Of a DNA stretch of 64,000 bases, positions 10,383-26,191 are shown piece after piece. Source of the stretch: Oharaeibacter diazotrophicus (lineage in GTDB: Bacteria; Pseudomonadota; Alphaproteobacteria; Rhizobiales; Pleomorphomonadaceae); the NCBI RefSeq assembly GCF_004362745.1, contig NZ_SNXY01000012.1, forward strand, positions 1 through 64,000, given 5' to 3'. The notes under the pieces were generated by a model, which saw only the letters and a list, made by a program, of their open reading frames with translations, was not told where the DNA came from and did no database searches. The first letter of the stretch is position 1. Each line of letters begins with the position of its first letter. Position numbers and translations under genes: made by a program.

Positions 10383-11261
10383 TCAGCCTCGCCACTCGAT
10401 CACGCGATAGGGCGCCGTGCCGGTGGAATCGGCCGTGATCACCACCTCGACGTCGCGCGCGACGCCGCGGCCGGACGCCACCTTCAGGCCGATGCGGTAG
10501 GCGACCGGCGGATCGGTGGTCGCCAGGGCCTGCGCCGCTTCGCCGACGAGCTTCTTCAACGCCTCCGAGGTCTCGTCGGAGCGCTTCTGCCGGAGCTTCA
10601 CGAGGCGGCCGACCGCGCTCGACGACAGGCCCGGCAGCGCCCGCAGCACCGCCTCGGGGGCGTCGTAGAGGTCTATCGTGCCGGCGGGGTTGGCGACGGT
10701 GAAATAGGGCCGGAGCGCGCGGACGTCGTCGGCGCCGACGCCGAGCACCCAGCGCAGCTCGTCGACCGAGCGGAAGCCGTCGTTGCGCGGCCGCCAGCCG
10801 ACGCCGGCGGCGTCGTAGTCCGCGGCCTCGGCGCCGCCGCCCTCGCCGACGTCGCCGTCGGCGTCGCGCCAGTCGGCGACGCGGGCGGCGAACTGCTCCG
10901 GCCGCAAGGTCTTGCGGCCGGCGGCAAGCCAGGCCGCGGCGATCAGCTTGGGATCCGAACCGTTGAGGTCGATGCGGGCGCTCTCGGCCAGCACCGACAG
11001 CGTCACCGTGCCCGCGTCGAGCCGGATCTGCTGGCCGGCGAGGCCGGCGGCGGGGGTCTTCAGCACGAACAGCTGGTAGCCGGCGAGTTCGAGGCCGGCG
11101 CGGACGAGGGCGTCCGCCTCGAGGTCGTCGACGGCGAGGCGGGCGTCGTCGACGCCGGAGCGCACCAGCAGGGTGATCGCGCCGACGAGCCCGGCGAACA
11201 GCACCAGGACGCCGAGGACGGAGGCCAGCACGAAGCCGGCTCGGGGCGCGCGTCCGGTCAT
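10383..11261 (-). CDS. gspK: Type II secretion minor pseudopilin GspK
   Basis: A protein of 292 residues. GspK caps the tip of the T2SS pseudopilus together with GspI and GspJ. The prepilin peptidase site is RAG-FVLASVLGVLVL at residues 8-9, followed by the hydrophobic helix. Position +5 is Ser and not Glu, which is normal for GspK and sets it apart from the other pseudopilins. The long C-terminal part contains LNGSDP, VADWRDADGD (residues 130-140) and a helix-hairpin-like ALPGLS, all as in GspK. Its start overlaps the gspJ stop by four bases. It is the last gene of the gspD-to-gspK operon. Confidence 0.88.
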   Translation of the reverse strand: MTGRAPRAGFVLASVLGVLVLFAGLVGAITLLVRSGVDDARLAVDDLEADALVRAGLELAGYQLFVLKTPAAGLAGQQIRLDAGTVTLSVLAESARIDLNGSDPKLIAAAWLAAGRKTLRPEQFAARVADWRDADGDVGEGGGAEAADYDAAGVGWRPRNDGFRSVDELRWVLGVGADDVRALRPYFTVANPAGTIDLYDAPEAVLRALPGLSSSAVGRLVKLRQKRSDETSEALKKLVGEAAQALATTDPPVAYRIGLKVASGRGVARDVEVVITADSTGTAPYRVIEWRG

Positions 11262-12031
11262 CGCACCCTCGCCGCCGCCGGGCCGTTGCGGTTGCGGTTC
11301 GGGCGAGCGCCCGGCTCGCCCTGGGGCGCGGCGCCCTCGCCCTGGCGCTGCTGGTCGGCGAGGCTGCAGAAGCCTTTGCCCTCGACGGCGCAGCCGGGTT
11401 CGGCGTCGACCAGGATCGGCACGCGGACGCTGTCGACGAGAGTGCCGGCGCGGTCGGTCAGGGCGATCCGGATCGCCGCCGGCAGCTTGCCGGGCTTGGT
11501 CCAGTCGTCGGTCAGCACCTCGCCGCTGCCGTCGGCCTGCGCCGCGAAATAGGCGAAGGCGACCCTGAGATCGCCCTGGTAGAGCCGCACCGGCGCCGGG
11601 AAGACGAGGGTGCGGGCGTCGTCGAGGTCGGGCCGCACGGGTGCTTCGGTGCGCAGCAGCACCGCGCGGTCTTCGACGACGCCGGCCCGGTAGGCGACGG
11701 CCGCGGTGGCGAGGAGGCCGGTGGCGTCGGGCCGGTCGAGGGTGAAGAGCAGGCGGTCGGACCCGCCGGCGAACAGGAAGTCGCCGTGGCGCTCGCCGGC
11801 GAAGCGGCCCCGGCTCATGCCCCGGATCTCGCGCTCAAGGCCGGCGACGGCACGGCCGATGGTCTCGCGGCGCTCGAGGTCGGCGGCGGTGCGGTCGCCG
11901 AGCCGGATCACCACGGTGATCAGGCCGGCCAGCCCGGCGACGACGAAGGCGCCGATCGCCAGCGTCGCCAGCGCCTCGACGAGCACGAAGCCGGCGCGGG
12001 GGGCGCCGCGGGCGGGGCGCCGGCCGGTCAC
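11258..12031 (-). CDS. gspJ: Type II secretion minor pseudopilin GspJ
   Basis: A protein of 257 residues. The N-terminus has a type III signal, RAG-FVLVEALATLAIGAFV, with Glu at +5. The globular part carries DRTAADLERRETIGRAVAGLEREI, matching the start of the GspJ domain. It joins GspI and GspK in the pseudopilus tip. Its start overlaps the gspI stop by four bases and its stop overlaps the gspK start by four bases, so translation is probably coupled. The last 30 residues are an Arg/Pro/Asn-rich tail with no obvious fold. Confidence 0.85.
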   Translation of the reverse strand: MTGRRPARGAPRAGFVLVEALATLAIGAFVVAGLAGLITVVIRLGDRTAADLERRETIGRAVAGLEREIRGMSRGRFAGERHGDFLFAGGSDRLLFTLDRPDATGLLATAAVAYRAGVVEDRAVLLRTEAPVRPDLDDARTLVFPAPVRLYQGDLRVAFAYFAAQADGSGEVLTDDWTKPGKLPAAIRIALTDRAGTLVDSVRVPILVDAEPGCAVEGKGFCSLADQQRQGEGAAPQGEPGARPNRNRNGPAAARVR

Positions 12032-12435
12032 GACGCCGGCGCCTTGACGAGGCGGACGGTCTCGACCGCCAGCCGGCGGCCGCGCGGCATCGACACCTCG
12101 ACGGTGAGGCGGACCGGCACGAAGGCGGGCGGGGCACCGTCGCCGGGCTTCGGCAGGGCGAGGCCGACCGCCTCGCTGGTCATGACCCAGGGATAGTCGC
12201 CGGCGCGGCCGGTTTTGCGGCCGGGCCTCGCGAGGGCGGCGGGGATCGGCCCCTCGAGCAGGCTGCGCACCACCTTCTCGGCGGCGAGGGTCTCGTTCAC
12301 CGACGCGGTGCCGTAACGGGCCGAGACGAGGCCGCGGGTCAGCACGACGGCGACGAGCGAGAGCACGACGAAGGCCGCGAGCACCTCGATCAGCGTGAAG
12401 CCGTCGCGGCGCCCGCGCGGCGCGGTCCCGGTCAC
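12028..12435 (-). CDS. gspI: Type II secretion minor pseudopilin GspI
   Basis: A protein of 135 residues with a clear prepilin signal, RRDG-FTLIEVLAAFVVLSL, cleaved after Gly12 with Glu at +5. The body is short, as in GspI, and includes LAAEKVVRSLLE. It nucleates the pseudopilus tip with GspJ and GspK. It overlaps gspH upstream and gspJ downstream by four bases each. Confidence 0.85.
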   Translation of the reverse strand: MTGTAPRGRRDGFTLIEVLAAFVVLSLVAVVLTRGLVSARYGTASVNETLAAEKVVRSLLEGPIPAALARPGRKTGRAGDYPWVMTSEAVGLALPKPGDGAPPAFVPVRLTVEVSMPRGRRLAVETVRLVKAPAS

Positions 12436-12908
12436 AGCTTCACCTCGACCATGGTGACGGCGGAGGTGATCGGATCGACGCGGACGCCGTAGCCGGACTT
12501 GCCGCGGCCGATCACCATGAGGCCGCCGCTGGAGCGGCCGTCCGGGGAGAAGACGACGCCGGCCGGGCGGCCGTCGAAGCGGAACACCACGTCGTCCGGC
12601 AGCGCGATGACCGCGCCGGTGGTGCCGGAGCGGACGAGGCGGGCGCCGACGTCGACGGCGGTGACCACCGGCCGGTCGGTCCGGTCGGCGGCGTTGCGGT
12701 CGGCGCGCATGGTCGCCGCGACCTGATAGGCGCGCACGCGCAGGTCCGTCGCGGTGCGCACCGGCATCACCTTGGGCAGGGCGAGCGCCGCGACGAGGCC
12801 GAGGATCGCGAGGGTGAGCGACAGCTCGATCAGGGTGAAGCCGGCGCGGCGGCCGCGCCGGTGCCCCGGGCGGGCGCGGTCACTCGTTGGAGACGTCGGC
12901 CCCGTCAT
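12432..12908 (-). CDS. gspH: Type II secretion minor pseudopilin GspH
   Basis: A protein of 158 residues. A long basic leader precedes the cleavage site RRAG-FTLIELSLTLAILGL. The rest fits the GspH pseudopilin domain (MRADRNAADRTDRP; SSGGLMVIGRGKSGYGVRV). GspH links the pseudopilus shaft to its tip. Its start lies inside the end of gspG (29-base overlap) and its stop overlaps the gspI start by four bases. Confidence 0.85.
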   Translation of the reverse strand: MTGPTSPTSDRARPGHRRGRRAGFTLIELSLTLAILGLVAALALPKVMPVRTATDLRVRAYQVAATMRADRNAADRTDRPVVTAVDVGARLVRSGTTGAVIALPDDVVFRFDGRPAGVVFSPDGRSSGGLMVIGRGKSGYGVRVDPITSAVTMVEVKL

Positions 12909-13338
12909 CGGTTCCGCCCTTCTTGCCGTCGGCGCCGTAGGACACGATCACGTAGGGCGCCTTGGTGCCGGGCACGCGGTATTCGTAGGCGTTGCCCCAG
13001 GGATCGAGCGGCACCGCGTCCTGCTGCAGGTAGGGACCGCCCCACTTGTCGGCCGACGGCGGCCGCTTGATCAGGGCGCCGAGGCCCTCCGAGGAGGTGG
13101 GATAGCGGCCGTTGTCGAGGAAGAACAGGTCGAGCGCACCGGCGAAGGACTCGATCTGCAGCTTGGCGGCGCGCGAGCGCGACGACGACAGGTAGCTCAG
13201 GACCCGCGGGCCGACGAGGCCCATGACGAGGCTGAGGATGACGAGCACGACCAGGAGCTCGACCAGGGTGAAGCCGCCCTTGCGGTCGCGTCGGGCGCGG
13301 TACGTCTCGAGGGAACGGCGGAGCGCGGGTCGATCCAT
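12880..13338 (-). CDS. gspG: Type II secretion major pseudopilin GspG
   Basis: A protein of 152 residues and the main subunit of the T2SS pseudopilus. The cleavage site KGG-FTLVELLVVLVILSLVMGL has Glu at +5. The GspG signature follows: FAGALDLFFLDNGRYPTSSEGLGALI, then PYLQ and PLDPWGNAYEYRVPG. The Asp-rich end (GGTDDGAD) suits the calcium-binding loop of the family. It follows gspF by six bases. A leader of about 22 residues before the cleavage site is longer than usual, so a slightly later start is possible. Confidence 0.92.
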   Translation of the reverse strand: MDRPALRRSLETYRARRDRKGGFTLVELLVVLVILSLVMGLVGPRVLSYLSSSRSRAAKLQIESFAGALDLFFLDNGRYPTSSEGLGALIKRPPSADKWGGPYLQQDAVPLDPWGNAYEYRVPGTKAPYVIVSYGADGKKGGTDDGADVSNE

Positions 13339-13344
13339 GATTGC

Positions 13345-14556
13345 CTATACCAGGAGGTCGTTGATGCTGATGAGCGCCGTCATCACGGAGATGATCAGCC
13401 AGGCGACGAGCAGGCTGACGCCGATCATCATAGCAGGCCCGATGATGGCAGTAACACGGCCGAGGGCCGTGTCCAACTTGGCTTCGTAGAAGCCGCCGAT
13501 GCGGTCGGCGCTGTCGGCGAGGTTGCCGGATTCCTCGCCGACCCGGATCATCTGCACGACGTGGCCGGGCAGGAGGTTCCGTTTCGCCAGCGATTCCGAC
13601 AGCCGCTTGCCCTGGCGGACGTCGGCGATCACCTTGTCGATCTCGGCGCCCGCCGCCGGCAGGCGCACGACGCCGCGGATCAGGCGGAGCGAGGTGGAGA
13701 TGTCGACGCCGTTGCGCACGAGGATGGCCAGGGTCCGGCAGAAGGTCAGCGTGATGTCGTAGGTGATTACGGTCCGCGTCACCGGCATCCGCGCGAGCAG
13801 CGTGATCCAGAGCGAGCCGCCGCGGCCGAGCCGGCCGATCACCACGAACAGGATCAGCAGCCCGATCGCGCCGGCGCCGATCATGTCGAGGTTCTCTCGG
13901 AAGATCCGCGACAGCTCGAACACCCTGAGCGCCGACGGGTCGAGCTTGTCGCGGAAGCCGGCGATCGCCTTCTCGAACTGCGGGATGATGTAGGCGAGCA
14001 CGAAGACCAGTACGCCGCTCGCCGCCACCACCAGGAACAGGGGATAGGAGATCGACGAGAAGAAGCGCTTGCGCAGGAGTTCGACGCGCTGGCGCTCGCG
14101 GGCGATGCCGGTCAGCGCCTCCTCGAGGCGGCCGGTGGTCTCGGCGACCTCGACGGTCTTGACGTAGATCGGCGGGAACAGCTTCGGGTGCTGCGCCAGC
14201 ACCTGGCTGAGGCTCTTGCCGCCGGTGAGCTCGGCGTGGAGCGTACGGATCAGCTTGGCGAGCCAGCGCCGGGATTCCATCTGCGACAGGATCACCAGCG
14301 CCTCGTCCAGCGTCACGCCGCCCTTGAGCAGCATCGCGAGGTCGAGGGTGAAGCCGGTGATGTCCTCGGACTTCGGCTCCGGCGTCACGAGCTCGCGCCA
14401 GCCGCCGGTGCTCGCCGGCCGGGTCTCGTCGGCGGAGATCGGCGTGAAGCCGGCGCGCTCGAGATTCTCCAGCACCTCGGCGCGGCTGCCGGCCTCCATG
14501 ACGCCGGCGAGCATGCGGCCCGAGGCGTTGATGGCCTTGTAGGCGAAATGGGTCAC
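13345..14556 (-). CDS. gspF: Type II secretion inner-membrane platform protein GspF
   Basis: A polytopic protein of 403 residues at the centre of the inner-membrane platform, contacting the GspE ATPase. The N-terminus FAYKAINASGRMLAGVMEAGS is the usual GspF opening. Two GspF cytoplasmic repeats are seen: DLAMLLKGGVTLDEALVIL near residue 75 and CRTLAILVRNGVDISTSLR near 275. Three membrane segments lie near residues 173-195, 220-245 and 375-395. Its start overlaps the prepilin peptidase stop by four bases. Confidence 0.92.
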   Translation of the reverse strand: MTHFAYKAINASGRMLAGVMEAGSRAEVLENLERAGFTPISADETRPASTGGWRELVTPEPKSEDITGFTLDLAMLLKGGVTLDEALVILSQMESRRWLAKLIRTLHAELTGGKSLSQVLAQHPKLFPPIYVKTVEVAETTGRLEEALTGIARERQRVELLRKRFFSSISYPLFLVVAASGVLVFVLAYIIPQFEKAIAGFRDKLDPSALRVFELSRIFRENLDMIGAGAIGLLILFVVIGRLGRGGSLWITLLARMPVTRTVITYDITLTFCRTLAILVRNGVDISTSLRLIRGVVRLPAAGAEIDKVIADVRQGKRLSESLAKRNLLPGHVVQMIRVGEESGNLADSADRIGGFYEAKLDTALGRVTAIIGPAMMIGVSLLVAWLIISVMTALISINDLLV

Positions 14557-15146
14557 GGCGCGAGCCCTCCCGGCAGCACGTCGGGGGCGAGGCGGGCGAG
14601 CGCGAACACCAGGGCGAGGGCGGGCGCCAGCAGGGTGCCGAAGGCGAGCTTCTCGGCGCGCAGGCTCTGCGAACGGCCGTGGCGGACGAGGAGGACGGCG
14701 ACGCCGGCCGCGCTGGCGGCAGCGAGGGCGGCGGCGAAGCCGGGCGCGCCGACCAGGACGCCGCCGGCGGCGCCGAGCTTGACGTCGCCGAAGCCGAGGC
14801 CGTCGAAGCCGCGGCGGCGGTAGAAGATCTCGCGCACCAGCCAGAGCGCGCCGCCGGTGAGGGCGACCTCGACCGCGGCGCGCAGCGCCTCGTCGGCGAG
14901 CGGCAGGCCGAAGGCGCGGGCGTCGGCGAGGCGGACGGCGGCGCCGACCAGGGCGAGGCCGACGACGGCGCCGTCGGGGATGGTGAAGCTCGCGGCGTCC
15001 TCGACCGCGACCCAGGCGGTGAGCGCGACCACCGCCGCGACCGCGACCGCCTCGCGGCCGCCGCCGGCGGCAAGGACGACCGCGACGGCGGCGAGCGCCG
15101 CCAGCGTCGCGCCGACGAGGTCGCGGAGGCCGGCGCCGTCCGCCAT
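14553..15146 (-). CDS. Prepilin peptidase GspO-like (A24), lacking the methyltransferase domain
   Basis: A hydrophobic protein of 197 residues with about six membrane segments. Both catalytic aspartates of the A24 aspartyl peptidases are present: VAVEDAASFTIPD near residue 50 and GLGFGDVKLGAAGG near 118 (the GxGD motif). It removes the basic leader of the pseudopilins encoded downstream. Canonical GspO/PilD enzymes are near 270-290 residues, with an N-terminal domain that has two CxxC pairs and N-methylates the new Phe. That part is absent here, as in CpaA-type peptidases. The gene lies between gspD and gspF, with overlaps, so it belongs to this T2SS. Confidence 0.85.
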   Translation of the reverse strand: MADGAGLRDLVGATLAALAAVAVVLAAGGGREAVAVAAVVALTAWVAVEDAASFTIPDGAVVGLALVGAAVRLADARAFGLPLADEALRAAVEVALTGGALWLVREIFYRRRGFDGLGFGDVKLGAAGGVLVGAPGFAAALAAASAAGVAVLLVRHGRSQSLRAEKLAFGTLLAPALALVFALARLAPDVLPGGLAP

Positions 15147-15147
15147 C

Positions 15148-17415
15148 TCAGGGGCTCTGCCGTTCGCGCTGGCCGATCGACCACAGCCGCGAGCGCAGGT
15201 CCTCGGCGACGGTCTGGGCGTCCTCGCCGTCGTGGATGACGACCGGCTTGATCAGGACGACGAGTTCGGTGCGCTCGCCCTTCTTGGAGGTGTCGCCGGC
15301 GGCGTCGCGCAGGATCGGGATCCGGTTGACGAGCGGCAGGCCGGTGCGGCCGTTGTCCTTGGACGAGGTGATCAGGCCGGCGAGCACCACGGTCTGGCCG
15401 GAGACCACCGAGATGCGCGAGGACACCTTGCGCTGCGAGAAGGTCGGACCGAGCTTGTTGGACTGGTCGGCGACGTTCGATATCTCCTGGTCGATGCTCA
15501 TCGTGACGGCGCCGTTGTCGCCGATCCGCGGCGTCACCTTCAGGATGATGCCGGTGTTGCGGTACTCGATCTCGTTGACCGTGACCGCGTTCGAGGTGTC
15601 GTTGCTGGTGCGCTGGGACACCTGGATCGGTACCGAGTTGCCGACCTGGAGGTTGGCGGTCTGATTCTCCATCACCACCAGCGAGGGCGACGACAGGATT
15701 TCGACGTCGGTGACCTTGTCGAGCGCCGAGATGATCATGTCGGGATCGGAGGCGGCGCCGAGCAGGAAGTTGAAGCCCGGCAGCGTGCGGGTCAGCGTCG
15801 AGGCCTCGGAGTTCTGGAAGTTGACGCCGGCGTCGCCCGACTGGAAGTAATACTTCACGCCGTATTGCAGCGTGGTGTTGAGCTTGACCTCGGCGATGGT
15901 CGCCTGGATCGCGACCTGGAGCGGCGGCACGTCGAGTTCGCGCAGGGTCGCCTGGATCTTCCGGAAGGTGTCGCCGTCGGCGAACACGACCACCGAGTTG
16001 TTGGTGGGGTCGGCGCTGATGCGCACGGCCGTGTTCGCGCCCTCGTTGCCCTGACGGGTGAGGTCGATCACGTCGGGCGAGGCCGAATCGGAGGCAGAGG
16101 TGCCCGACTGGTCGCCGCCCCCGCTGTCCTCGCCGGCGCCGGTGACGTTGTCGATCGGGGTCTCGCCGGTCTGGCTCGGATCGGTCGACTGCGTCGGGTC
16201 GGTGCCCCCGGCGGTGGAGCTACCGGAGATCGGCGAGCCGGTCGTCGAGCCCGAGCCCGAGGTGCCACTGCCGCCGCCGGACGTGCCCTGCTGGCCTCCG
16301 GTCGACAGCGAGGTGTCGGCCGAGATGCCGAACAGGGTGCCGACGATCTTGGCCAGTTCCTTGGAATCGCGGTACTTCGCCCGGTAGATGAAGACGTTGC
16401 CCTCGCCGTCGGCGTTCTCCTGGTCGAGCCGGCGGACCCAGGTCTCGGCGCGGCGGATCAGGGTCTGGTTCGACGACACCGCCAGCACGGCGCGCAGGCG
16501 CTTGATCGGCTTGAACTGGATCGCGCCGTTGGCGTTGCCGTTGGCGCCGCTGTCGAAGACGCGCTCGAGCTCGGAGACGATCGCGTCAGGCTGGGCCCGC
16601 TTCAGCTCGAGGATGGCGACCGACTGGTTCGCCATCCAGTCCTCGTCGAAGGACAGCACGGTCTGCACCACCTCCTCGCGCTTCGGCCCGGGGCCGGAGA
16701 TGACGAGGGCGTTCTTGGTCCGGTCGATCCGCAGGCTCTCGGCGTCGGTGACGAAGCCGCCGAGCAGTCGCGAGATCGCCTGCACCGAGACGAAGCGCAG
16801 CGGCACGATCGAGACGCCGTAGCCGGGGCTGGAGCGGCGGCCGACGTCGACGGCGCCGGCCGCCGGCAGCAGCGGGCCGACCCGGTAGACGCCGCCGGAC
16901 TTCGTCAGCGAGAAGCCCTGGCTGGAGAGTACGGTCTCGAGCGTCGACAGCAGCTCGTTTCGGCTCACGGGGCGCGCCGAGGAGATCGAGGTGGTGCCGG
17001 CGACGTCGGGCGAGATGGTGTAGTTGAGGCCGAGCGCCTCGCCGAGCACGGCGTGAACCACGTCGCGGATCTCGGCGTTGTCGAAGTTGAGGCGGTAGGC
17101 GTCGGGCTGCGAGGCGCCGGTGGCCTCGCCCGCCGCGGGGTCCGTCGCCGCGCCGGTGCGGGCGCCGGCCGCGGCGGTGCCGTCGGCGGCATAGGCGCCG
17201 GGTCCGAAGATCTGCGAACGGCCGGAGCCGCCGCCCCCGACGGGGATCAGGCCCTGCGGCTCCCTGGCGGAGGGCTTGGGCTTGCGGGCACGCAGGTCGC
17301 CGAACACGCCGCCCTCGAACACCGAGCCGCGGCTGTCCGGCTCGCTGTCGAGGCTGGCGCACGAGACGACCCCTGCGAGGCCGACGATCACGAGCAGGAG
17401 CCGCAATGCCCACAT
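15148..17415 (-). CDS. gspD: Type II secretion secretin GspD, predicted lipoprotein
   Basis: A protein of 755 residues that forms the outer-membrane channel. The N-terminus is a lipoprotein signal with lipobox VVSC at residues 16-19. An N0 domain starts near 105 (YRLNFDNAEIRDVVHAVLGEAL). Further N domains follow, and the secretin core from about 510 has VEILSSPSLVVMENQTA and the VPI and RTGLPL motifs. Between N2 and N3, at about residues 365-450, is a Gly/Ser/Thr/Asp-rich low-complexity insert. A built-in lipid anchor suggests the secretin needs no separate pilotin; no pilotin gene is in the window. It is first in its operon and divergent from gspE. Confidence 0.93.
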   Translation of the reverse strand: MWALRLLLVIVGLAGVVSCASLDSEPDSRGSVFEGGVFGDLRARKPKPSAREPQGLIPVGGGGSGRSQIFGPGAYAADGTAAAGARTGAATDPAAGEATGASQPDAYRLNFDNAEIRDVVHAVLGEALGLNYTISPDVAGTTSISSARPVSRNELLSTLETVLSSQGFSLTKSGGVYRVGPLLPAAGAVDVGRRSSPGYGVSIVPLRFVSVQAISRLLGGFVTDAESLRIDRTKNALVISGPGPKREEVVQTVLSFDEDWMANQSVAILELKRAQPDAIVSELERVFDSGANGNANGAIQFKPIKRLRAVLAVSSNQTLIRRAETWVRRLDQENADGEGNVFIYRAKYRDSKELAKIVGTLFGISADTSLSTGGQQGTSGGGSGTSGSGSTTGSPISGSSTAGGTDPTQSTDPSQTGETPIDNVTGAGEDSGGGDQSGTSASDSASPDVIDLTRQGNEGANTAVRISADPTNNSVVVFADGDTFRKIQATLRELDVPPLQVAIQATIAEVKLNTTLQYGVKYYFQSGDAGVNFQNSEASTLTRTLPGFNFLLGAASDPDMIISALDKVTDVEILSSPSLVVMENQTANLQVGNSVPIQVSQRTSNDTSNAVTVNEIEYRNTGIILKVTPRIGDNGAVTMSIDQEISNVADQSNKLGPTFSQRKVSSRISVVSGQTVVLAGLITSSKDNGRTGLPLVNRIPILRDAAGDTSKKGERTELVVLIKPVVIHDGEDAQTVAEDLRSRLWSIGQRERQSP

Positions 17416-17580
17416 AACGAACGGTGCCCCTCAGGCGATCCGACGACTGCGCCCGGATCCACGGCGCGCGAACGATACACCGGACGGATGGGTCCTTCCG
17501 GCCATATTGCTCCGCTCCCGTCCGATATGTCCCGGAGCTTCACCGTTTTTCAACATGTGTGTCGTCGCGGACGCATCGCA

Positions 17581-17625
17581 TCGACCCCCGACGGGGTGGC
17601 GGCGGGGTCGATTTGCGTCGACCCC
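17581..17625. promoter_or_regulatory. Triple TCGACCCC palindrome between gspD and gspE
   Basis: TCGACCCC occurs at 17581-17588 and 17618-17625, and its inverse GGGGTCGA at 17604-17611. The last two form a hairpin or operator with a six-base spacer (TTTGCG). The cluster is 86 bases upstream of gspE and 166 bases upstream of gspD, in a 295-base divergent region with no gene. It may be a binding site for a regulator of both T2SS units. No convincing -35/-10 pair was found. Confidence 0.35.
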
Positions 17626-19393: not shown

Positions 19394-19403
19394 GTTCGTG
19401 GCC

Positions 19404-19428
19404 GACCGCCGGCGGCGGGCCGGCGGTC
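19404..19428. terminator. GC-rich hairpin between gspE and the DUF1150 gene
   Basis: Arms of ten bases (GACCGCCGGC and GCCGGCGGTC) enclose a five-base loop. It lies between two convergent stops 45 bases apart, so a shared terminator is likely. There is no T-run. Confidence 0.45.
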
Positions 19429-19438
19429 CGGACGGGGC

Positions 19439-19711
19439 TCAGTGCACGCTCACCGTGGTGAGGTCGGCTTCCTGGGCGTTGGCGAGCGCGGCCTCGCGGC
19501 TGTCGGTCAGCATGATCGGCGTGCCGTCGGCGGCGAGCAGTGCCCACAGCTTCAGGCCGGGGGCGAGATGCGGCGCGCCGGGGAACAGCGAACCGACGTC
19601 GTCGGAATCGATCTTGCGGATGTAGGCGACCTTGCCGTCGCCTAGCTGCAAGAAGGCCGCGTCGGGCATGATCGCCCGCTCGGCGTGGTGGTGATGCTCC
19701 TGGTCGTTCAT
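19439..19711 (-). CDS. DUF1150 family protein
   Basis: A protein of 90 residues. FLQLGDGKVAYIR near residue 20 and LKLWALLAADGTPIMLTDSREAALANA near 53-80 are the conserved lines of DUF1150, a small alphaproteobacterial family usually encoded beside hsp20. The N-terminus has a His run (HHHH). Function is unknown; the gene order suggests a heat-shock or proteostasis link. It lies 271 bases downstream of hsp20. That gap holds a small hairpin near 19861-19880 and nothing else I can support. Confidence 0.85.
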   Translation of the reverse strand: MNDQEHHHHAERAIMPDAAFLQLGDGKVAYIRKIDSDDVGSLFPGAPHLAPGLKLWALLAADGTPIMLTDSREAALANAQEADLTTVSVH

Positions 19712-19982
19712 GACGCACCTCCTCGGGGTCCCGCCGTGACGTGGCCGGGAACCGCTGGACTGTCCGGTCGGTGGTCCGTCGCGCGCCGGTCTTTCGGCCG
19801 GCGTGGGCGGGTGCCGGGCCCGCGGCGAGCATGTCGCCGTGCGCCCGACGGGAACGCATTCCGATCTTACGGTCGGAACGCTTACGTGGATGTTGACGTT
19901 CGGGTGTCCGCCCCGCCCACGAGAGGGAACGGGCCGTGCGGTGCGACGGTTCCGCCGCGGGGATCGGACCTTCGGACCGCCG

Positions 19983-20408
19983 TCAGTCGCGGGCGGAGAT
20001 CTCGATCTTGCGGACGATCCGCTCGGGCTGCGGGCGGGTGAGGTCGATCGAGAGCAGGCCGTCCTTGAGGTCCGCGCCCTTGATCTCGATGCCCTCGGCC
20101 AGCACGAAGGTGCGCTGGAACTGCCGCGCGGCGATGCCGCGGTGGAGGAAGTGCCGCGCCTTGTCCTCGACCTGACGGCCGCGGATGATCAGCTGGTTCT
20201 CCTCCACCGAGACGTCGAGCTGGTCGCGGGTGAAGCCGGCCACCGCGAGGGTGATGCGGATCACGTCGCCGGCGCCGTCGCCGGGGATGCGCTCGATGTT
20301 GTAGGGCGGATAACCGTCGTTGGTGGCCTTGGCCACCCGGTCGAGCGCCCGCTCGATGTCGTCGAAGCCCAGCAGGAACGGGCTCTGGAAAGTTGTCAAA
20401 CGCGTCAT
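19983..20408 (-). CDS. Small heat-shock protein, Hsp20/IbpA type
   Basis: A holdase chaperone of 141 residues that keeps unfolded proteins soluble. The alpha-crystallin domain spans about residues 37-130 (YNIERI, ITLAVAGFTRDQLDV, LIIRGRQ, ARHFLHRGIAARQFQRTF). The opening FQSPFLLGFDDIERAL is the usual start of rhizobial class A small heat-shock proteins. The ATG at 20408 has GAGGA nine bases upstream. The Shine-Dalgarno is partly held in a hairpin. DUF1150 lies downstream in the same direction. Confidence 0.9.
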   Translation of the reverse strand: MTRLTTFQSPFLLGFDDIERALDRVAKATNDGYPPYNIERIPGDGAGDVIRITLAVAGFTRDQLDVSVEENQLIIRGRQVEDKARHFLHRGIAARQFQRTFVLAEGIEIKGADLKDGLLSIDLTRPQPERIVRKIEISARD

Positions 20409-20417
20409 CGATCAAAG

Positions 20418-20435
20418 TCCTCGCTCGGGAAGCGA
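20418..20435 (-). promoter_or_regulatory. Possible thermosensor hairpin over the hsp20 ribosome-binding site
   Basis: On the minus strand TCGCT-TCCCG-AGCGA forms a five-base-pair hairpin (20421-20435), and the AGCGA arm runs into the Shine-Dalgarno GAGGA (20418-20422). Rhizobial small heat-shock genes often have ROSE elements whose last hairpin masks this site. The hairpin here is short and I did not find the rest of a ROSE element. Confidence 0.3.
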
Positions 20436-20561
20436 CCTTGACGTTGCGCCGGACCCTGGCGGCGTCCGGCCGGCCCCGAGGGGCACGACGCGAATATGGC
20501 GAGCCCCTCCCGGGACTTCAAGGCGAGGCCGCGGGAGCGGCCCCGGGGAGGGGAAAGGGGA

Positions 20562-21470
20562 TCACGCGTCGGCGAGCGCGAGGGCGGTCGCGGCGTCGAT
20601 CGGGCGGTCGACGAAGAGCAGCCGGTTGCCGGAGGGGTCGACCGCGGCGGTCGCGGGACCGGCGTCCGCGCCGAGGCCGGCGGCGGCGAGGCGGGCGGCA
20701 TGGGCCGCGCGCGCGGCCGGCGCCATGGTGACGGTGGCGTGGCGAAGGCCGGTCGCGCCGGCCACGCGGGTGCCGCCGGCGCTCTCCCAGGCGTTGAGGC
20801 CGAAGTGGTGGTGGTAGCCGCCGGCCGCGACGAACAGCGCGGACGGATAGCCCTCCTCGGTCGCCTCGAAGCCGAGGGTGTCGACGTAGAAGCGGCGCGT
20901 CGCCGCGACGTCGGCGACCTTGAGGTGGACGTGGCCGACCACGGTGCCGGCCGGCAGGCCGTCGAAGCGCCGGCCGACGGCGTCGCCGTCGGCGAGCACG
21001 CCGGCGATGTCGAAGGGCGAATTGTCCATGTGGATCCGGCCGTCGCGCCGGGGCCACTCGGCGCGGGGACGGTCGCGGTAGACCTCGATGCCGTTACCCT
21101 CGGGGTCGGCGAGATAGGTCGCCTCGGAGACGAGGTGGTCGGAGGCGCCCTGCAGGCGCGCGCCGACGGCGGCGGTGTGGCGCAGCCAGCGGCCGAGGTC
21201 GGCGCGCGCGGGCAGCAGGATCGCGACGTGGTAGAGGCCGGGCGCGCGGCGTCCGGCGAGCGGGGCGTCGGGCGCGCCGACCAGGGTGACGAGCGGCGTG
21301 CCGTCGGCGGCGCCGAGCACGACGGCGCGCCCATCCTCGGCGAGCGGGACCATGCCGAGCACGTCGCGGTACCAGGCCGCGACGCGGGCGCGGTCGCGCA
21401 CGGTCAGGGCGACGGGGCCGACGGCGGTGGCGGCGTCGATGGCGGCGGCGGTGTGCGGCGCGGTGTCCAT
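20562..21470 (-). CDS. VOC family protein (glyoxalase/extradiol-dioxygenase fold), CatE-like
   Basis: A protein of 302 residues with two vicinal-oxygen-chelate domains, at about residues 15-130 (VGPVALTVRDRARVAAWYRDVLGM) and 165-285 (VGHVHLKVADVAATRRFYVDTLGF). The sequence YHVAILLPAR, LADPEGNGIEVYRDRP and GYHHHFGLNAWE are typical of the catechol-2,3-dioxygenase-like CatE group. The His and Glu metal ligands appear kept, so a metal-dependent ring-cleaving or isomerising enzyme is possible. Substrate is unknown. It is the first gene downstream of the LuxR-type regulator, 169 bases away, and may be under its control. Confidence 0.8.
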   Translation of the reverse strand: MDTAPHTAAAIDAATAVGPVALTVRDRARVAAWYRDVLGMVPLAEDGRAVVLGAADGTPLVTLVGAPDAPLAGRRAPGLYHVAILLPARADLGRWLRHTAAVGARLQGASDHLVSEATYLADPEGNGIEVYRDRPRAEWPRRDGRIHMDNSPFDIAGVLADGDAVGRRFDGLPAGTVVGHVHLKVADVAATRRFYVDTLGFEATEEGYPSALFVAAGGYHHHFGLNAWESAGGTRVAGATGLRHATVTMAPAARAAHAARLAAAGLGADAGPATAAVDPSGNRLLFVDRPIDAATALALADA

Positions 21471-21639
21471 GGGGTCTCGTCCCTTCGCGGGGCCGGATGC
21501 GCCTCCGTCGGAGGCGCCGGAACCGGCAGCGTCCCTTCCCGGATAGCCCGCGCCCGCGCGGGGCGGGAGATCTCGCCCGGTGGAAACGCCGTTCGACGGG
21601 CGTGAACAGTCCGGCGAAACGCTGGCTCGACGTTCAGCG

Positions 21640-22758
21640 TCAGAGCCTGAACAGCGGTGTGATCCGCTCGACGAGGCGCACCAGCTCGCCCTGGCGGCCG
21701 ACGTCGAGCTTGGCGAACACCTTCTTCAGAACGGTGCGGACGGTCTCCTCGGAGAGGGACAGTTCCTCGGCCGCACGGGCGGGCACCAGACCGCCGCCGA
21801 CCAGTTCGGCGACGCGGGCCTCGCCGGCGGTCAGGCCGGCCTGCATCAACGCCGCGGCGACGCCGCCGCCACCCTCCAGCGGATCGTTGACCATCACCAG
21901 CGCGTGGCGCCGGCGCGGATCGTCGTCGCCGGCCCGCGGCAGCGGGACGACGCGCAGGTAGACCGGCAGCCGGCTGTCGGGGCGGGGCAGGGCGAGGAAG
22001 TCGGGGTGGCCGCTCGCGGTGCGCGCGAGGGCGTCGGCGACCATGGCCTCGAAGGCGGTCTGGACCGCGGCGACGCGGAAGCGCGGCTTCGGCCGCGCGA
22101 GCGCCAGATGGCCGGCGACGAGGCGTTCGAAGGCGGCGTTGGCGACCAGCACCGCGCCACGGCCGTCGAGCACGGCGGCGCCGAAGCCGAGCCGGCCGAG
22201 CGCCTCGGCGAGTTCGTTTCCGGCCGTCGCCAGCCCCCCGAGCCGGGTCGTCAGCAGCATCGCCCGCGACAGGTGGCGCGACAGCCGCTCGAAGTCGACC
22301 CGGCGGGCCCGGTCGATCTCGTCGACGTCGGTCGGGAACTGGATCGAGACGGTGAGGCGGTCGCCCTCGGCGGTCGCCGCGACGAGGCAGAGCAGGTGGC
22401 GCATGCCGTGGTCGCGCCGGAACTCCTGGTAGAAGGGATCGGCGCGAAAGGCTTCGGTGGAGAAGATGTCGAGGTCGGAGAAGACGCCCTTGAGCCGGCT
22501 GCGGAAGGCCTCGGCGCCGATGCTGTCGTGGCGGCACCAGTGCGCCACGTAGTCGGGCACGGCGCCCTGCAGGGCCGGGCTGACCGCCGCGACGTCGGCC
22601 GCGTCGACCGCGTGCAGGATCATGGTGGCGCCGACGCCGCCGAAGGCCTCGGCGAGCGCCTGCAGGGTGTCGTTCCACGTGCCCGGATCCGCCGCCGCGG
22701 CATAGACGCGGTCGACGAGATCGAGCATCTCCTGCTCGCGCAGGTGCCCCCGCTCCAT
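21640..22758 (-). CDS. LuxR-type helix-turn-helix transcriptional regulator
   Basis: A protein of 372 residues. The C-terminal 65 residues are a LuxR/FixJ DNA-binding domain (LTAGEARVAELVGGGL, then RAAEELSLSEETVRTVLKKVFAKLDV). The upstream 300 residues have no recognised autoinducer-binding or receiver domain. Around residues 195-290 a PAS-like line (GAAVLDGRGAVLVANAAFERLV) is visible. This layout is common in orphan LuxR regulators of Hyphomicrobiales. No luxI-like gene is in the window. Likely targets are the neighbours (VOC protein, polyol dehydrogenase or T2SS), but this is inference. Confidence 0.8.
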   Translation of the reverse strand: MERGHLREQEMLDLVDRVYAAAADPGTWNDTLQALAEAFGGVGATMILHAVDAADVAAVSPALQGAVPDYVAHWCRHDSIGAEAFRSRLKGVFSDLDIFSTEAFRADPFYQEFRRDHGMRHLLCLVAATAEGDRLTVSIQFPTDVDEIDRARRVDFERLSRHLSRAMLLTTRLGGLATAGNELAEALGRLGFGAAVLDGRGAVLVANAAFERLVAGHLALARPKPRFRVAAVQTAFEAMVADALARTASGHPDFLALPRPDSRLPVYLRVVPLPRAGDDDPRRRHALVMVNDPLEGGGGVAAALMQAGLTAGEARVAELVGGGLVPARAAEELSLSEETVRTVLKKVFAKLDVGRQGELVRLVERITPLFRL

Positions 22759-22846
22759 CGGTGTCCGGATCCCGTTTCCCCCCGGACCGTCACTATCTCG
22801 CGGATGGCGGCGGGCGGCAACCCTGCGCGCGGAACAGGTTGCCTCG

Positions 22847-23617
22847 TCAGTTCATGCAGTTCCCGCCGTCGACGTTGAGCGTCTGGGCGACGACGTAGTC
22901 GGAATCGGCGCTGGCGAGGAACACGGCGGCGCCGGCGAGGTCGTCCGGCCGGCCCATGCGGCCGTAGGGGACGGCGGCGCCGACCTCGCGCTTCTTGGCG
23001 CCGATCGGCAGGCCCTCGCGGGCGGCGAACAGGGCGTCGACGTGGTCCCACATCGGCGTGTCGATCACGCCGGGGGCGATGGCGTTGACGTTGATGCCGT
23101 GGCGGATCAGGTCGAGACCGGCGGACTGGGTCAGCGAGATCACCGCCGCCTTGGTGGCGCAATAGACCGCGCCGAGCGGCTCGCCGCGCCGGCCGGCCTG
23201 GCTCGACATGTTGACGATCTTGCCGCCGCGGCCGCGCGCGATCATCGCCCTCGCCACCGCCTGGAGCGTGAAGAACAGGCCCTTGACGTTGATGTCGAAC
23301 AGCTTGTCCCAGCCGGGGCGCGTCACCTCGACCACCGGCGCGAGGTCGTAGACGGCGGCGTTGTTGACCAGCACGTCGATGCCGCCGGCGCGGGCGACGA
23401 CGGTGTCGACCATGGCGTCGATGCTGGCGGGGTCGGTGACGTCGAGACGGACGGCGAACGCGCCGCCGCCGATCGCGGCGGCGGTGGCGGCGGCCTCGTC
23501 GGCGAGCACGTCGGCGACCACCACCACGGCGCCCTCGCGTCCGAAGGCCTCCGCCATCGCCCGGCCGATGCCGCGCGCGCCACCGGTGACGATGGCCACC
23601 TTGTTCTCGAGTTTCAT
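22847..23617 (-). CDS. SDR polyol dehydrogenase, sorbitol dehydrogenase (SmoS)-like
   Basis: A short-chain dehydrogenase of 256 residues. It has the cofactor loop TGGARGIG (residues 11-18), Asp36 for NAD preference, NNAA (85-88), and the catalytic set Asn110, Ser139, Tyr152 and Lys156. Much of the chain reads like SmoS of Rhodobacter (ASQAGRRGE-like region, VYCATKAAVISLTQSAGL, GINVNAIAPGV, DYVVAQTLNVDGGN), so oxidation of sorbitol or a related polyol to a ketose is likely. The ATG at 23617 is preferred to one ten codons upstream. It usually sits with an ABC polyol transporter, which is not present here. Confidence 0.85.
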   Translation of the reverse strand: MKLENKVAIVTGGARGIGRAMAEAFGREGAVVVVADVLADEAAATAAAIGGGAFAVRLDVTDPASIDAMVDTVVARAGGIDVLVNNAAVYDLAPVVEVTRPGWDKLFDINVKGLFFTLQAVARAMIARGRGGKIVNMSSQAGRRGEPLGAVYCATKAAVISLTQSAGLDLIRHGINVNAIAPGVIDTPMWDHVDALFAAREGLPIGAKKREVGAAVPYGRMGRPDDLAGAAVFLASADSDYVVAQTLNVDGGNCMN

Positions 23618-23728
23618 GAATTCGGATTCCGCGATCGATTGCCGCACGCCGCGACGGCGCGCGGGGCGGACGCTAGGAGCGGCGTCGCGGCGCTGTCAAG
23701 CCGGCGGCAGCGCCACCGGCGCCGTCGG

Positions 23729-24562
23729 TCAGGGCTGACCGATCGGAAAGTTGGAACCGCCGAAGTTGGAGGCACCACCACCGTCGCCGCCGGTGTCGGG
23801 GGCGCCCGGAGGCGGCGGGGCGAAGCCGGGCGGCAGGTTGCCCGACCCGTCGGGCGAGACGTCGCCGCCGCCGGGCACGGAGCCGTCGTCGCGGTGCCGT
23901 GCGGGGTTGTTGGAGCCGGCCGCGCCGGGATCGTCGAAGTTCAGCGCGGGATCGACCGGGTTGCCCGAGGCGTCGAACTGCGGCAGGGCGTCGGGATCGT
24001 TCATGCCGTCGATCGCGCCCGGCGCACCGCCGGCCGGCGATGCGGGGCTCGAGCCGGGCTCGAACAGCACGTAGTCGGAGACCTGGTCCTCGTAGGCGAG
24101 GTGCAGCGCGGTCGGATCGATCGCGGCCACCGTCCAGGCCTCGATGGCGTCGCCGACGCGCACCGGGTTGGTCTTGCCGGTTCCGAGGTCCTGGACGAGG
24201 GCGATGGTCTCCTCGCCCTTACCGAGCACGCCGGCGAGACGGATGTTCGGCGGATCGGGTGCCACCGCGGGTTCCGGCTCGGGTTCGGGCTGCGGCTGCG
24301 GTTCCGGCTCGGGCGCCGGCGGCGCCGGGGCGCGCCGGGAGGCGGTGAACAGCGGGCGGTCGCGGAAGCCGTCGAGGCTTTCGAGCGAGAGCGTCGAGAG
24401 ATTGTTGAGGAGGAAGCGGTCGGCGCCGGCCGCGGTCGCCGCCGCGGCGGCGTCGGTGGCGGTGCCGACGTCGACCGGCTCGGCGGACGGGACGTCCTGT
24501 GCCACGGCCGGGGCGGCGGCGAGGAAGGCCAAGAGGAGGCCGGAGCGGAGGGCGGGGGTCAT
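23729..24562 (-). CDS. T2SS GspN/GspC-like periplasmic protein
   Basis: A protein of 277 residues with a signal peptide (residues 1-21, ending AVAQ). Residues 65-80 read DRPLFTASRRAP, a hallmark of the T2SS GspC/GspN family. After a Pro/Glu repeat (PEPEPQPQPEPEPEP), residues 103-165 form the likely homology-region domain (IRLAGVLGKGEETIALVQDL, VRVGDAIEAWTVAAI). The last 100 residues are Gly/Pro/Asn-rich and probably disordered. GspC bridges the inner platform to the secretin, and this may do so here, but it has no separate membrane anchor and no PDZ domain. It follows gspM by one base. Confidence 0.7.
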   Translation of the reverse strand: MTPALRSGLLLAFLAAAPAVAQDVPSAEPVDVGTATDAAAAATAAGADRFLLNNLSTLSLESLDGFRDRPLFTASRRAPAPPAPEPEPQPQPEPEPEPAVAPDPPNIRLAGVLGKGEETIALVQDLGTGKTNPVRVGDAIEAWTVAAIDPTALHLAYEDQVSDYVLFEPGSSPASPAGGAPGAIDGMNDPDALPQFDASGNPVDPALNFDDPGAAGSNNPARHRDDGSVPGGGDVSPDGSGNLPPGFAPPPPGAPDTGGDGGGASNFGGSNFPIGQP

Positions 24563-24563
24563 C

Positions 24564-25112
24564 TCAGGCCTCCGCCTTGAACCAGGCGCGCACGGTGAGG
24601 TCGATGCGCAGCACCGGGTCCTCGGCGCCGGCGCCGTCCTGGCTCGGCAGCTCGCGCACCGCGGCGGTGCCGACCGTCATCAGCGGCAGCCCGGTCTCGA
24701 GGCCGTGCAGCAGGCGCAGGAGGCCGCCGTTGGTGGCGTCGAAGGTGACCTTGAGGTCGATGGCGTCCGGGGGCAGGTCGGGGTCGTCGATCACCTGCGC
24801 TTCGACCAGCTTGCCGCCGACGTCGGCGATCGCCTTGCCGATCCGGGTCTGCAGGTCGGCGCCGGCGAGCGGGCGGCTGCCGGCGGCGAGATAGAGCGTG
24901 CGGGTGTCGACGGCGACGACGCCGTCGGCGCCGGTGCGGGCGAGACGGGCGTCGAGATCGCGCAGCAGCGCCTCCTGGCGGGCGATCAGGTCCTCGGTCT
25001 CGCGCCAGGCGACGAGCTGGAACAGCCCGGTCGCCAGCGCCGCGGCCGGCAGGGCGAGGAACACCACCACCGCGACGAGGCGGAGCGTGCTGGAGGACGG
25101 GGCGGCGCTCAC
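24564..25112 (-). CDS. gspM: Type II secretion inner-membrane protein GspM
   Basis: A protein of 182 residues, starting at the GTG at 25112, which overlaps the gspL stop by four bases (GTGA). A membrane helix lies at about residues 12-34 (VVVFLALPAAALATGLF), then a coiled-coil-like stretch (EDLIARQEALLRDLDARLAR), then a ferredoxin-like periplasmic domain (IDLKVTFDATNGGLLRLLHGLE). This is the GspM/PilO layout. It partners with GspL to anchor GspE at the inner membrane. The open frame continues upstream without a stop, but that part is antisense to gspL. Confidence 0.78.
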   Translation of the reverse strand: MSAAPSSSTLRLVAVVVFLALPAAALATGLFQLVAWRETEDLIARQEALLRDLDARLARTGADGVVAVDTRTLYLAAGSRPLAGADLQTRIGKAIADVGGKLVEAQVIDDPDLPPDAIDLKVTFDATNGGLLRLLHGLETGLPLMTVGTAAVRELPSQDGAGAEDPVLRIDLTVRAWFKAEA

Positions 25113-26191
25113 GGCAGGCCTCCGGCGGCGGGGGCGGCGCCGTCGACGGCCGCGGTTTCGCCGCCGGGCGTGCCGACGTCGCGGACGGCGACGATGTCGA
25201 AGCTGTCGCGGCCGTCGTCGGTGCGGGTGACCGGGGCGGCGAAGCGGACGTCGGAGAGGCCGGGATCGGCGTCGAGCAGGCCGATCAGCGCCGGGGCGTC
25301 GGCCGAGAAGCCGACGAGGCGGACCTTCGGGCCCTCGATCGAGAGTTCGCGCAGGTAGGTGTCGTCGGGCACGGCGCGCGACAGCCGGTCGATCAGCACG
25401 ACCAGCGACGTGGCCGGCGTCTTCGCCTCGATCAGTTCCTTGTCGCGGCCCTCCGTCCGCCCCGCACCGGCGGCGGCGCGCAGCACGGCGCGCTTGGTGA
25501 GGAGGCGCTTGTCGAGTTCGGCGAGCCGCTGGTCCGACAGGCCGGTCAGCACCGTGCCGGCGGCGAGGGCACCGACGCCCGACAGGCCGAGCAGCGCGAC
25601 GGCGACGACCACGCCACGGCGCAGCCGGACGCGGCCGACGTCGCGACGGCCGCGGTAGAGGTCGACGCGCAGCGGCGTCGCGATCGGCTCGGCGGCCGAA
25701 CCGAGCGCGGTCGGGGCGAGGTCGAGCGCCTCGAGCCGGGCGACCGCGGGCGCGGCGAGGTCGGACGAGGTGGCGGCGAACTCGACGGTCATGGTGCCCT
25801 CGCCGGCGGTCGTGCCGGCGGCGTAGCCGAACAGCACGCGGTCGGGGCGCCACGGCGTCAGCCGTTCGAGGCGGTGCTCGATGATGGGCTCGAGATATTC
25901 GCGGCCGGCGGCCGGCAGTTCCAGCGTGCGGGTCAGGACGCGTTTCGGGGCGAGGCGGAGCTCGACGGCGGCGCCGCCGGCGCGCTTCAACCGGCGGATC
26001 TCCTTGGCCGCCGCGGTCTCGGCGGTGCCGACCGGCTCGGCGCGGCCACGCCGCACGGCGTAGAGCGCCAGCCCGCCGTCGGCCTCGACGGCGACAATCC
26101 GGCTCGACGACACGAAGCGCCCGAAGACGGGCGCGACCACCTCGACGAAGGCGTCGACGAGCTTGGCGAGGGTCCCGGAGATCTGGCCCAT
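25109..26191 (-). CDS. gspL: Type II secretion inner-membrane protein GspL
   Basis: About 360 residues. The cytoplasmic part (residues 1-185) has PAAGREYLEPIIEHRLERLTPW and ATSSDLAAPAVARLEAL, as in the GspL/PilM-like ATPase-docking domain. A membrane helix lies near residues 187-208. It is followed by a periplasmic coiled coil and a PilN-like domain (VVLIDRLSRAVPDDTYLRELSI). It recruits GspE to the membrane. The ATG at 26191 is chosen, since upstream in-frame codons give an unlikely Ala/Pro-rich leader; the ribosome-binding site is weak. It is first in a gspL-gspM-gspN operon about 6 kb from the other T2SS genes. Confidence 0.8.
   Translation of the reverse strand: MGQISGTLAKLVDAFVEVVAPVFGRFVSSSRIVAVEADGGLALYAVRRGRAEPVGTAETAAAKEIRRLKRAGGAAVELRLAPKRVLTRTLELPAAGREYLEPIIEHRLERLTPWRPDRVLFGYAAGTTAGEGTMTVEFAATSSDLAAPAVARLEALDLAPTALGSAAEPIATPLRVDLYRGRRDVGRVRLRRGVVVAVALLGLSGVGALAAGTVLTGLSDQRLAELDKRLLTKRAVLRAAAGAGRTEGRDKELIEAKTPATSLVVLIDRLSRAVPDDTYLRELSIEGPKVRLVGFSADAPALIGLLDADPGLSDVRFAAPVTRTDDGRDSFDIVAVRDVGTPGGETAAVDGAAPAAGGLP

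Follow-up and report, generated by a model that had tools for sequence, protein, structure and literature searches.

The window analysed here, a stretch of 64,000 nucleotides from Oharaeibacter diazotrophicus, encodes a single type II secretion system (T2SS), apparently complete with gspC to gspM and gspO, in three pieces. It is very probable that this locus consisted of two divergent operons, gspD-O-F-G-H-I-J-K and gspE-L-M-C, before a single inversion turned about 6.8 kb of DNA between gspE and ptsN, that the genes now lying between the pieces are bystanders, and that the protein formerly labelled 'GspN-like' is GspC. The T2SS itself is ordinary, of a kind present in part of the Hyphomicrobiales, in the family Pleomorphomonadaceae or near it, while the rearrangement is lineage-specific. 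This takes away a seeming exception, a T2SS that lacks GspC, and the locus would illustrate clearly how one inversion can break up a set of secretion genes.

Gene content and the identity of GspC

The gsp genes are intact open reading frames within 10383-26191, most of which match their families in profile searches, and they bear out the first-pass annotation in its description of a three-piece T2SS with other genes between the parts. The minus strand carries, in this order, gspK (10383..11261; PF21687, 51 bits, over the cut-off; NF037980, 67.7 bits, under the cut-off of 130), gspJ (11258..12031), gspI (12028..12435), gspH (12432..12908), the major pseudopilin gene gspG (12880..13338; TIGR01710, 138.6 bits, cut-off 88.9), gspF for the inner-membrane platform (13345..14556; PF00482, 168.7 bits; TIGR02120, 234 bits, under the cut-off of 424), gspO for a prepilin peptidase with an A24 domain only (14553..15146; PF01478) and gspD for a secretin with an N0 domain (15148..17415; TIGR02517, 390.3 bits, cut-off 351.35; PF21305 for N0, 54 bits, cut-off 27). 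GspK, GspJ, GspI and GspH are minor pseudopilins; GspI and GspH each match N_methyl (PF07963) over the cut-off and the gspI/XpsI and gspH/XpsH models weakly, and the divergent GspJ is assigned by position, a type IV pilin-like N-terminus, a weak match to TIGR01711 (14.4 bits) and its occurrence in the same place in relatives. The ATPase gene gspE (17711..19393, plus strand; PF00437, 438.8 bits) is divergent from gspD. Beyond it, and beyond genes for DUF1150, Hsp20, a VOC protein, a LuxR-type protein and an SDR-family dehydrogenase, lies a minus-strand module of gspL (25109..26191), gspM (24564..25112; PF10741, 54 bits, over the cut-off) and gspC (23729..24562), which starts 4.3 kb past the end of gspE and 6.3 kb past the start of gspD. 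The periplasmic part of GspL is PilN-like, matching PF05137 (45.5 bits) and no GspL-named Pfam model. The expected components are present, namely GspD with its N0 domain, GspE, GspF, GspG, the minor pseudopilins (GspJ by a weak match), GspL and GspM, and the system is predicted from its genes to be functional in secretion; no separate gspN was found in this T2SS. Scanning 17300-27700 for promoters and terminators gave nothing resembling a promoter and a single terminator-like site, which falls within luxR (2.0 such sites are expected by chance). The genome holds two secretins, GspD of the window and CpaC of a Tad-type locus; with CpaC the sole other secretin found, no second T2SS was detected, and the complete gspC-to-gspO operon elsewhere, which the first-pass annotation had allowed for, was not found.

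That annotation had reported no gspC homologue with a PDZ domain and suggested that a 'GspN-like' protein might replace GspC. The suggested replacement fails, since the gene in question encodes GspC itself, in a short form with an HR domain, and a GspC homologue is therefore present in the window. The HR domain (residues 103-167; 24062..24256, minus strand) is modelled by AlphaFold with a mean pLDDT of 92-97 in the blocks spanning residues 101-160, and its best PDB match by structure comparison is GspC 3oss_C (Z 9.8, rmsd 1.9 over 62 residues), so that the model shows an HR fold. The best Foldseek E-value for the model is 3.8e-3, and the best profile-to-PDB matches are 6hcg_e (E 0.0016) and the GspC HR structure 2lnv (0.018). 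NF041515 (GspC_delta) matches the protein with E 1.5e-7, at 31.5 bits far under its curated cut-off of 150, and matches 23 of the 25 members of the GspC alignment of relatives at E<=1.

The Pfam GspC model, PF11356, does not match the window protein. The whole-genome profile search for GspC that the annotation had proposed gave no PF11356 match at E<=0.001, yet the genome does contain one GspC, the only one found, which that model misses. At this threshold PF11356 is silent in all six genomes searched, including that of the window and three T2SS-bearing relatives from its family, which amounts to a blind spot in annotation; it matches weakly in nine of 25 and six of 16 GspC members, and does match in the Caulobacter control genome. 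The annotation rightly found no PDZ-bearing GspC: no PDZ family matched at E<=1 in the window GspC or in the 15 named relatives whose sequences were followed to the stop codon. GspN can be rejected as an identity, as no Pfam family matches the protein at E<=10, PF01203, the GspN (T2SSN) model, included. PilP is likewise rejected, on the absence of a Cys from the N-terminal hydrophobic stretch and on the gsp neighbours. The HR domain is expected to contact the N0 domain of GspD, which would link the secretin to the GspL/GspM platform with no PDZ domain involved.

Gene order in relatives and a proposed single inversion

The genes gspL-M-C are contiguous and on one strand in all 45 loci that have the three genes. 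The annotation had proposed looking for its order in related genomes: the divergence of gspE from gspK-D does recur, but the window is the only locus (1/45) in which over 3 kb separates gspLMC from the closest other gsp gene. The order gspE-L-M-C is found in the T2SS-bearing family members G002, G006 and G017 and in loci of families f34 and f17, and the nearest relatives have gspKJIHGFOD divergent from it; a gap of 1.8-2.2 kb follows gspE in G006 and G002. A tree of six proteins from 29 loci groups the window with G006 and G017 (support 100) and nests it inside an f1/f34/f17 clade (support 100) whose other members are all gspE-L-M-C. Four loci of f13, f28 and f23, with gspLMC and gspE converging, fall outside this clade. 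The three-piece order is therefore no clade-level alphaproteobacterial variant, as had been suggested, because the nearest T2SS-bearing relatives keep gspE-L-M-C together and the window alone has gspLMC more than 3 kb away. A split T2SS as such is not unique to the window, G052 (f34) having gspE-L-M-C and gspK..D on separate contigs (C2 and C1; loci L065 and L051). The family sample comprises 20 genomes, the window's being the only one of its genus, so the arrangement is known from one genome.

We propose that the locus had gspD-O-F-G-H-I-J-K divergent from gspE-L-M-C until a segment of about 6.8 kb was inverted, with breakpoints in the gap past gspE (19394..19438, before the DUF1150 gene) and in the gap past ptsN (26192..26340, before gspL), both placed by synteny comparison. 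The inverted block would comprise gspL-M-C and five further genes, all now on the minus strand: the SDR gene (22847..23647; PF13561, 206 bits, searched as 22847-23614), the LuxR-type gene (21640..22758), the VOC/glyoxalase gene (20562..21470; PF00903), hsp20 (19983..20408; PF00011) and the DUF1150 gene (19439..19711; PF06620). Inversion would have parted gspLMC from gspE and placed it downstream of ptsN (26341..26955, minus strand; PF00359), the end of an rpoN-hpf-ptsN run, on the same strand and with ptsN directly upstream of gspL. Such a single event would explain both disturbed neighbourhoods, that of gspE and that of ptsN. The DUF1150 gene adjoins hsp20 and ptsN in relatives, and the pair converges on ptsN in all five family genomes outside genus g4 and in nine of 16 genomes of other families (in two of them hsp20 alone), the opposite arrangement occurring in none of the 16. 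In G005 and G007 a VOC gene sits on the far side of hsp20, an order shared with the block in the window. However, in nine of the 11 g4 genomes examined (of 14), hsp20-DUF1150 is co-directional with ptsN and preceded by mmcB and another gene, and the rpoN/hpf/ptsN tree makes the window sister to g4, which weakens a simple polarity on the hsp20 side. The flip on that side could thus partly predate the window's lineage; the window has no mmcB match, which is also compatible with g4 having changed on its own. Neither the SDR nor the LuxR gene was found beside any T2SS of the family.

The co-direction in most of the g4 genomes examined would also suit an arrival of the T2SS in two pieces, gspKJIHGFOD-E and gspLMC, which would have entered independently at the two ends of the hsp20 block without any inversion, and G052 demonstrates that parts of this system can separate. 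The flanks of the window cluster are not shared with the T2SS loci of relatives, as this scenario would have it. We nevertheless regard two-piece arrival as very unlikely: two insertions would have had to restore a complete set by chance, while the T2SS and species trees both place the window beside the G006/G017 lineage, which has gspE-L-M-C. An error of assembly is the least probable explanation of all, even for a draft in 14 contigs with no second genome of the genus for comparison. False inversions in assemblies usually stem from long inverted repeats, and among the longest 25 of 916 inverted-repeat pairs in 19340-26420 none joins the two breakpoints.

The first-pass annotation had suggested that the split order is a variant with its own control, possibly through the LuxR-type gene, which does sit between the T2SS parts and whose HTH match is borderline (PF00196, 22.8 bits, cut-off 23.5). 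The Beijerinckia mobilis locus (L096) encodes, some 0.6 kb downstream of its gspC, a full-length LuxR-type protein of 27% identity; it was the one relative detected by BLAST among the open reading frames of the T2SS regions examined. Within the family, a search at E<=1e-10 did not detect the gene in the T2SS-bearing G002, G006 and G017, and relatives of it occur in G003, G005 and G007, three genomes that yielded no GspC of this kind and of which G007 has a GspD by itself. Since the distribution of the LuxR gene does not follow that of this T2SS, there is no indication of local control, and we reject the gene as a local regulator; with gspE-L-M-C also kept together in the nearest relatives, a functional three-unit variant is highly improbable. 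Inversion of a once intact gspE-L-M-C operon is the reading we retain.

Anchoring of GspC and GspD

The N-terminus of GspC is probably a cleavable signal peptide, cut at AVA|QD after residue 21 (24500..24562, minus strand, by pattern inspection), and this is probably a feature of the clade. An A-x-A site is present in 14 of 15 signal-peptide-like GspC and three of eight others, a description rather than a blind test, as these 23 proteins were hand-picked from 37 + 16 matches and sorted into groups by eye beforehand. The best 19-residue hydrophobicity means of signal-peptide-like and anchored GspC overlap and do not separate them. GspD has a lipobox, VVS|C, with Cys19 (17359..17370, minus strand), and is probably a liposecretin; the motif is found in 42 of 54 GspD against 47 of 1154 unrelated open reading frames in a like test, and lipobox-bearing GspD is also a clade feature.

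A bolder reading, which we hold tentatively and think somewhat likelier to be wrong than right, is that a Hyphomicrobiales clade (Methylopila, Chelatococcus, Hansschlegelia, Pleomorphomonadaceae and others) has a T2SS with exchanged anchors. GspC would be a soluble periplasmic HR linker, freed by signal peptidase I, lacking inner-membrane helix and PDZ domain and held by GspL/GspM and GspD only, half-way between the GspC of a T2SS and PilP; GspD would be a lipoprotein, and the inversion could tie platform levels to rpoN-hpf-ptsN. If GspC is soluble, the accepted picture of a bitopic inner-membrane clamp fails for this clade. Among the published titles and abstract beginnings listed by the literature searches, none dealt with this split order or with a soluble GspC in Hyphomicrobiales.

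Comparison with known systems

The closest analogues are the loci of Oryzibacter oryziterrae (L081, genome G006) and a Pleomorphomonas MAG (L082, genome G017), which share with the window the gene content, the divergence of gspKJIHGFOD from gspE, an uninterrupted gspL-M-C and a GspC without a PDZ match. In both, gspLMC lies after gspE and runs in its direction, whereas the window has the module inverted at a distance of 4.3 kb. Caulobacter also has an alphaproteobacterial T2SS but, unlike the window, a gspC-N cluster with gspO in canonical alphabetical order (PMC2996285).

PDZ-less GspC was already known before this case, and a PDZ domain is not required, as LspC, XcpP and XpsC lack it. The history of XpsC of Xanthomonas, formerly XpsN, resembles that of the window protein: it was filed as a GspN equivalent and later recognised as GspC by its HR domain, and it has no PDZ domain (PMC11981180). 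XpsC has a single-helix second periplasmic region, where the window GspC has a low-complexity tail and a signal-peptide-like N-terminus. LspC of Legionella (PDB 7oio; Z 6.9 against our model) and XcpP of Pseudomonas are described in PMC12369372 as accepted PDZ-less GspC homologues; both belong to other lineages than the window, and XcpP has a coiled coil.

As to the anchors, the HxcQ liposecretin of Pseudomonas carries its own lipid anchor and reaches the outer membrane without a pilotin (PMC3542185); the window GspD would share the lipid anchor, its lipidation being predicted from the lipobox alone. PilP of type IV pili (PDB 2y4y and 2lc4) has an HR-like fold close to that of the window GspC (Z 8.9 and 8.5), but PilP is lipidated and encoded in pilus loci, whereas the window GspC lacks a lipobox and has gspL and gspM for neighbours.

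Genes of the T2SS and the identity of GspC

The genes named in the first-pass annotation are real and intact, and their coordinates and strands were borne out. On the minus strand gspK-J-I-H-G-F-O-D occupy 10383-17415, gspE follows on the plus strand (17711-19393), and gspC (23729-24562), gspM (24564-25112) and gspL (25109-26191) lie beyond it, again on the minus strand. Between gspE and gspC are intact minus-strand genes for a DUF1150 protein (19439-19711), Hsp20 (19983-20408), a VOC protein (20562-21470), a LuxR-type protein (21640-22758) and an SDR dehydrogenase (22847-23647). Family searches back the T2SS gene identities, that of gspJ weakly. The window belongs to contig C12, one of 14 in an assembly of 4.99 Mb with a completeness rating of 99.96%. 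No second T2SS was found in this genome: a PF00263 search gave two secretins, GspD of the window and a CpaC at a Tad-type locus, and a search with an alignment of 25 GspC relatives gave only the window's own GspC. The system is an ordinary one and apparently complete. GspO (14553-15146, minus strand) has the A24 peptidase domain alone in Pfam, with no extra N-terminal domain. The minus-strand gene at 7357-9285 encodes a Castor/Pollux-type ion channel protein, with a relative at E<=1e-100 in two of the 19 other family genomes (Oryzibacter oryziterrae, G006, and G018).

It had been proposed that no gspC homologue with a PDZ domain was present and that a GspN-like protein might replace it, but that protein is itself GspC, as its HR-domain matches indicate, and the system lacks no GspC. 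It matches no Pfam family at E<=10, and PF11356 (GspC), positive in the E. coli and Caulobacter controls, gave no match at E<=0.001, either in the window's genome or in its three T2SS-bearing family relatives. The NCBIfam model NF041515 (GspC_delta) matched residues 47-181 with an E of 1.5e-7, far below the model's cut-off, and at E<=1 it matched 23 of the 25 aligned relatives; PF11356 matched nine of them (best E 6.2e-5). Against the PDB, the top matches of a profile of these 25 were 6hcg_e (E 0.0016; molecule name OutC, entry title PulC HR domain), the GspC HR structure 2lnv (0.018) and PilP (0.055). Overall, an AlphaFold model built on 16 sequences is poor, with a mean pLDDT of 68, while ten-residue blocks within residues 101-160 average 92-97; its best structural match is GspC 3oss_C (Z 9.8, rmsd 1.9, 62 residues), followed by PilP, 6hcg and LspC, and the best Foldseek E was 3.8e-3. 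The absence of a PDZ domain, also claimed earlier, holds: no PDZ family was found at E<=1 in this GspC or in any of 15 named relatives followed as far as the stop codon, a sixteenth (L085) being left out as its sequence is cut. GspC C-termini are described as differing, with LspC lacking PDZ and XcpP carrying a coiled coil (PMC12369372), and Xanthomonas XpsN is recorded as renamed XpsC on account of its HR region (PMC11981180).

Gene order and a proposed inversion

Of 297 genomes from the taxonomic order, 72 had a TIGR02517 match at E<=1e-40. We surveyed 52 stretches, every match of at least 336 bits except the window's own, and added two stretches around gspLMC, in G052 (family f34) and a Pleomorphomonas MAG (G017), and 16 named loci from a GspL scan. 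After removal of loci missing gspL, gspM or gspC (at contig ends, or with a lone GspD) and of seven named loci duplicating surveyed genomes, 45 loci with all three genes remained: 35 surveyed stretches, nine named loci and the window. Stretches L017, L037, L042, L043, L056, L057, L059, L060, L061, L062 and L064 hold GspD-like secretins accompanied, as far as each stretch extends, by no other gsp gene or by a gspK-like match alone; several of these secretins exceed the TIGR02517 cut-off, some of the loci are contig ends, and one also occurs in family genome G007.

T2SS gene order is variable across the taxonomic order as a whole. In all 45 loci gspL-M-C are adjacent and on one strand; they also stand together in the Ensifer order gspDOGLMCKEFHIJ (PMC5613336). 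They directly follow gspE on its strand in 15 loci, two with a gap of 1.8-2.2 kb. In another 15, including the window, they oppose gspE, so that opposition by itself is not unusual. The window is the only one of the 45 in which no other gsp gene lies within 3 kb of them. The combination of KJIHGFOD with E-L-M-C occurs in, among others, Oryzibacter, the Pleomorphomonas MAG, Methylopila, Chelatococcus, Hansschlegelia, Methylobrevis, Aureimonas and Acuticoccus. In G052, gspE-L-M-C (L065) and gspK..D (L051) stand on different contigs, far inside both, and the T2SS is therefore split elsewhere too, at the gspD/gspE boundary. According to Abby et al. (PMC4793230), 96.5% of T2SS lie in a single locus and the Legionella system is scattered; splitting is thus uncommon but known.

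The three-unit arrangement had been read as an alphaproteobacterial variant, a reading at odds with its restriction to the window within a clade that otherwise has E-L-M-C. When GspD, E, F, G, L and M of 29 loci are combined in one tree, the window groups with G006 and G017 (support 100), nested in a clade of families f1, f34 and f17 (support 100) whose other analysed members all have E-L-M-C. This nesting, together with an rpoN/hpf/ptsN tree placing the window's genus as sister to g4, to which G006 and G017 belong (support 0.956), indicates that the window's order is derived. Hsp20 and DUF1150 genes converge on ptsN in all five family genomes outside g4 (G005, G007, G001, G002, G004), with a VOC gene beyond hsp20 in G005 and G007; among 16 genomes of other families both converge on ptsN in seven, hsp20 alone in two, and neither lies within the stretch in seven. 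Flipping the gspE-ptsN stretch back recovers E-L-M-C and the convergent hsp20-DUF1150-ptsN order together. A lineage-specific inversion of this stretch very probably split the T2SS. The breakpoint gaps are 45 and 149 bases, the same genes in relatives being, by eye, roughly 50 to 300 bases apart, and the 25 longest inverted repeats include none joining both breakpoints. Within g4, hsp20-DUF1150 are co-directed with ptsN in nine of 11 genomes examined (of 14), with mmcB and a further gene ahead of them, and hsp20 is lacking there in the other two (G006, G017); this turned orientation relative to other genera (L072-L075, L077, L144-L147) would be another rearrangement of that site.

Regulation and membrane anchoring

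Independent control of the system, with the LuxR-type gene as local regulator, had also been proposed, and is possible but not indicated: relatives at E<=1e-10 occur in G003, G005 and G007, and in none of the T2SS-bearing family members G002, G006 and G017. In Beijerinckia mobilis (L096:6239-7381) a full-length LuxR-type protein, 27% identical over almost its whole extent, lies about 0.6 kb downstream of gspC.

The boldest of the readings that remain concerns the GspC N-terminus, a short hydrophobic stretch and then AVA|QD after residue 21. Among 15 GspC sorted by eye as window-like, 14 have an A-x-A site, against three of eight in the other group. If cleaved there, the protein would be soluble, unlike the textbook GspC, which is bitopic.

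GspD carries a lipobox, VVSC, at residues 16-19 (17359-17370, minus strand). By a loose test, 42 of 54 GspD of the taxonomic order (L013-L066 included) have one just before the secretin domain; 47 of 1154 unrelated ORFs have one within their first 110 residues, and so does one of 216 other gsp proteins when put to the test. This makes a lipid-anchored secretin likely for many of these systems. Many secretins of this order are thus probably lipoproteins, and a pilotin may not be needed. From its lipobox, the window's GspD is predicted to be lipid-anchored, like the secretin HxcQ (PMC3542185).
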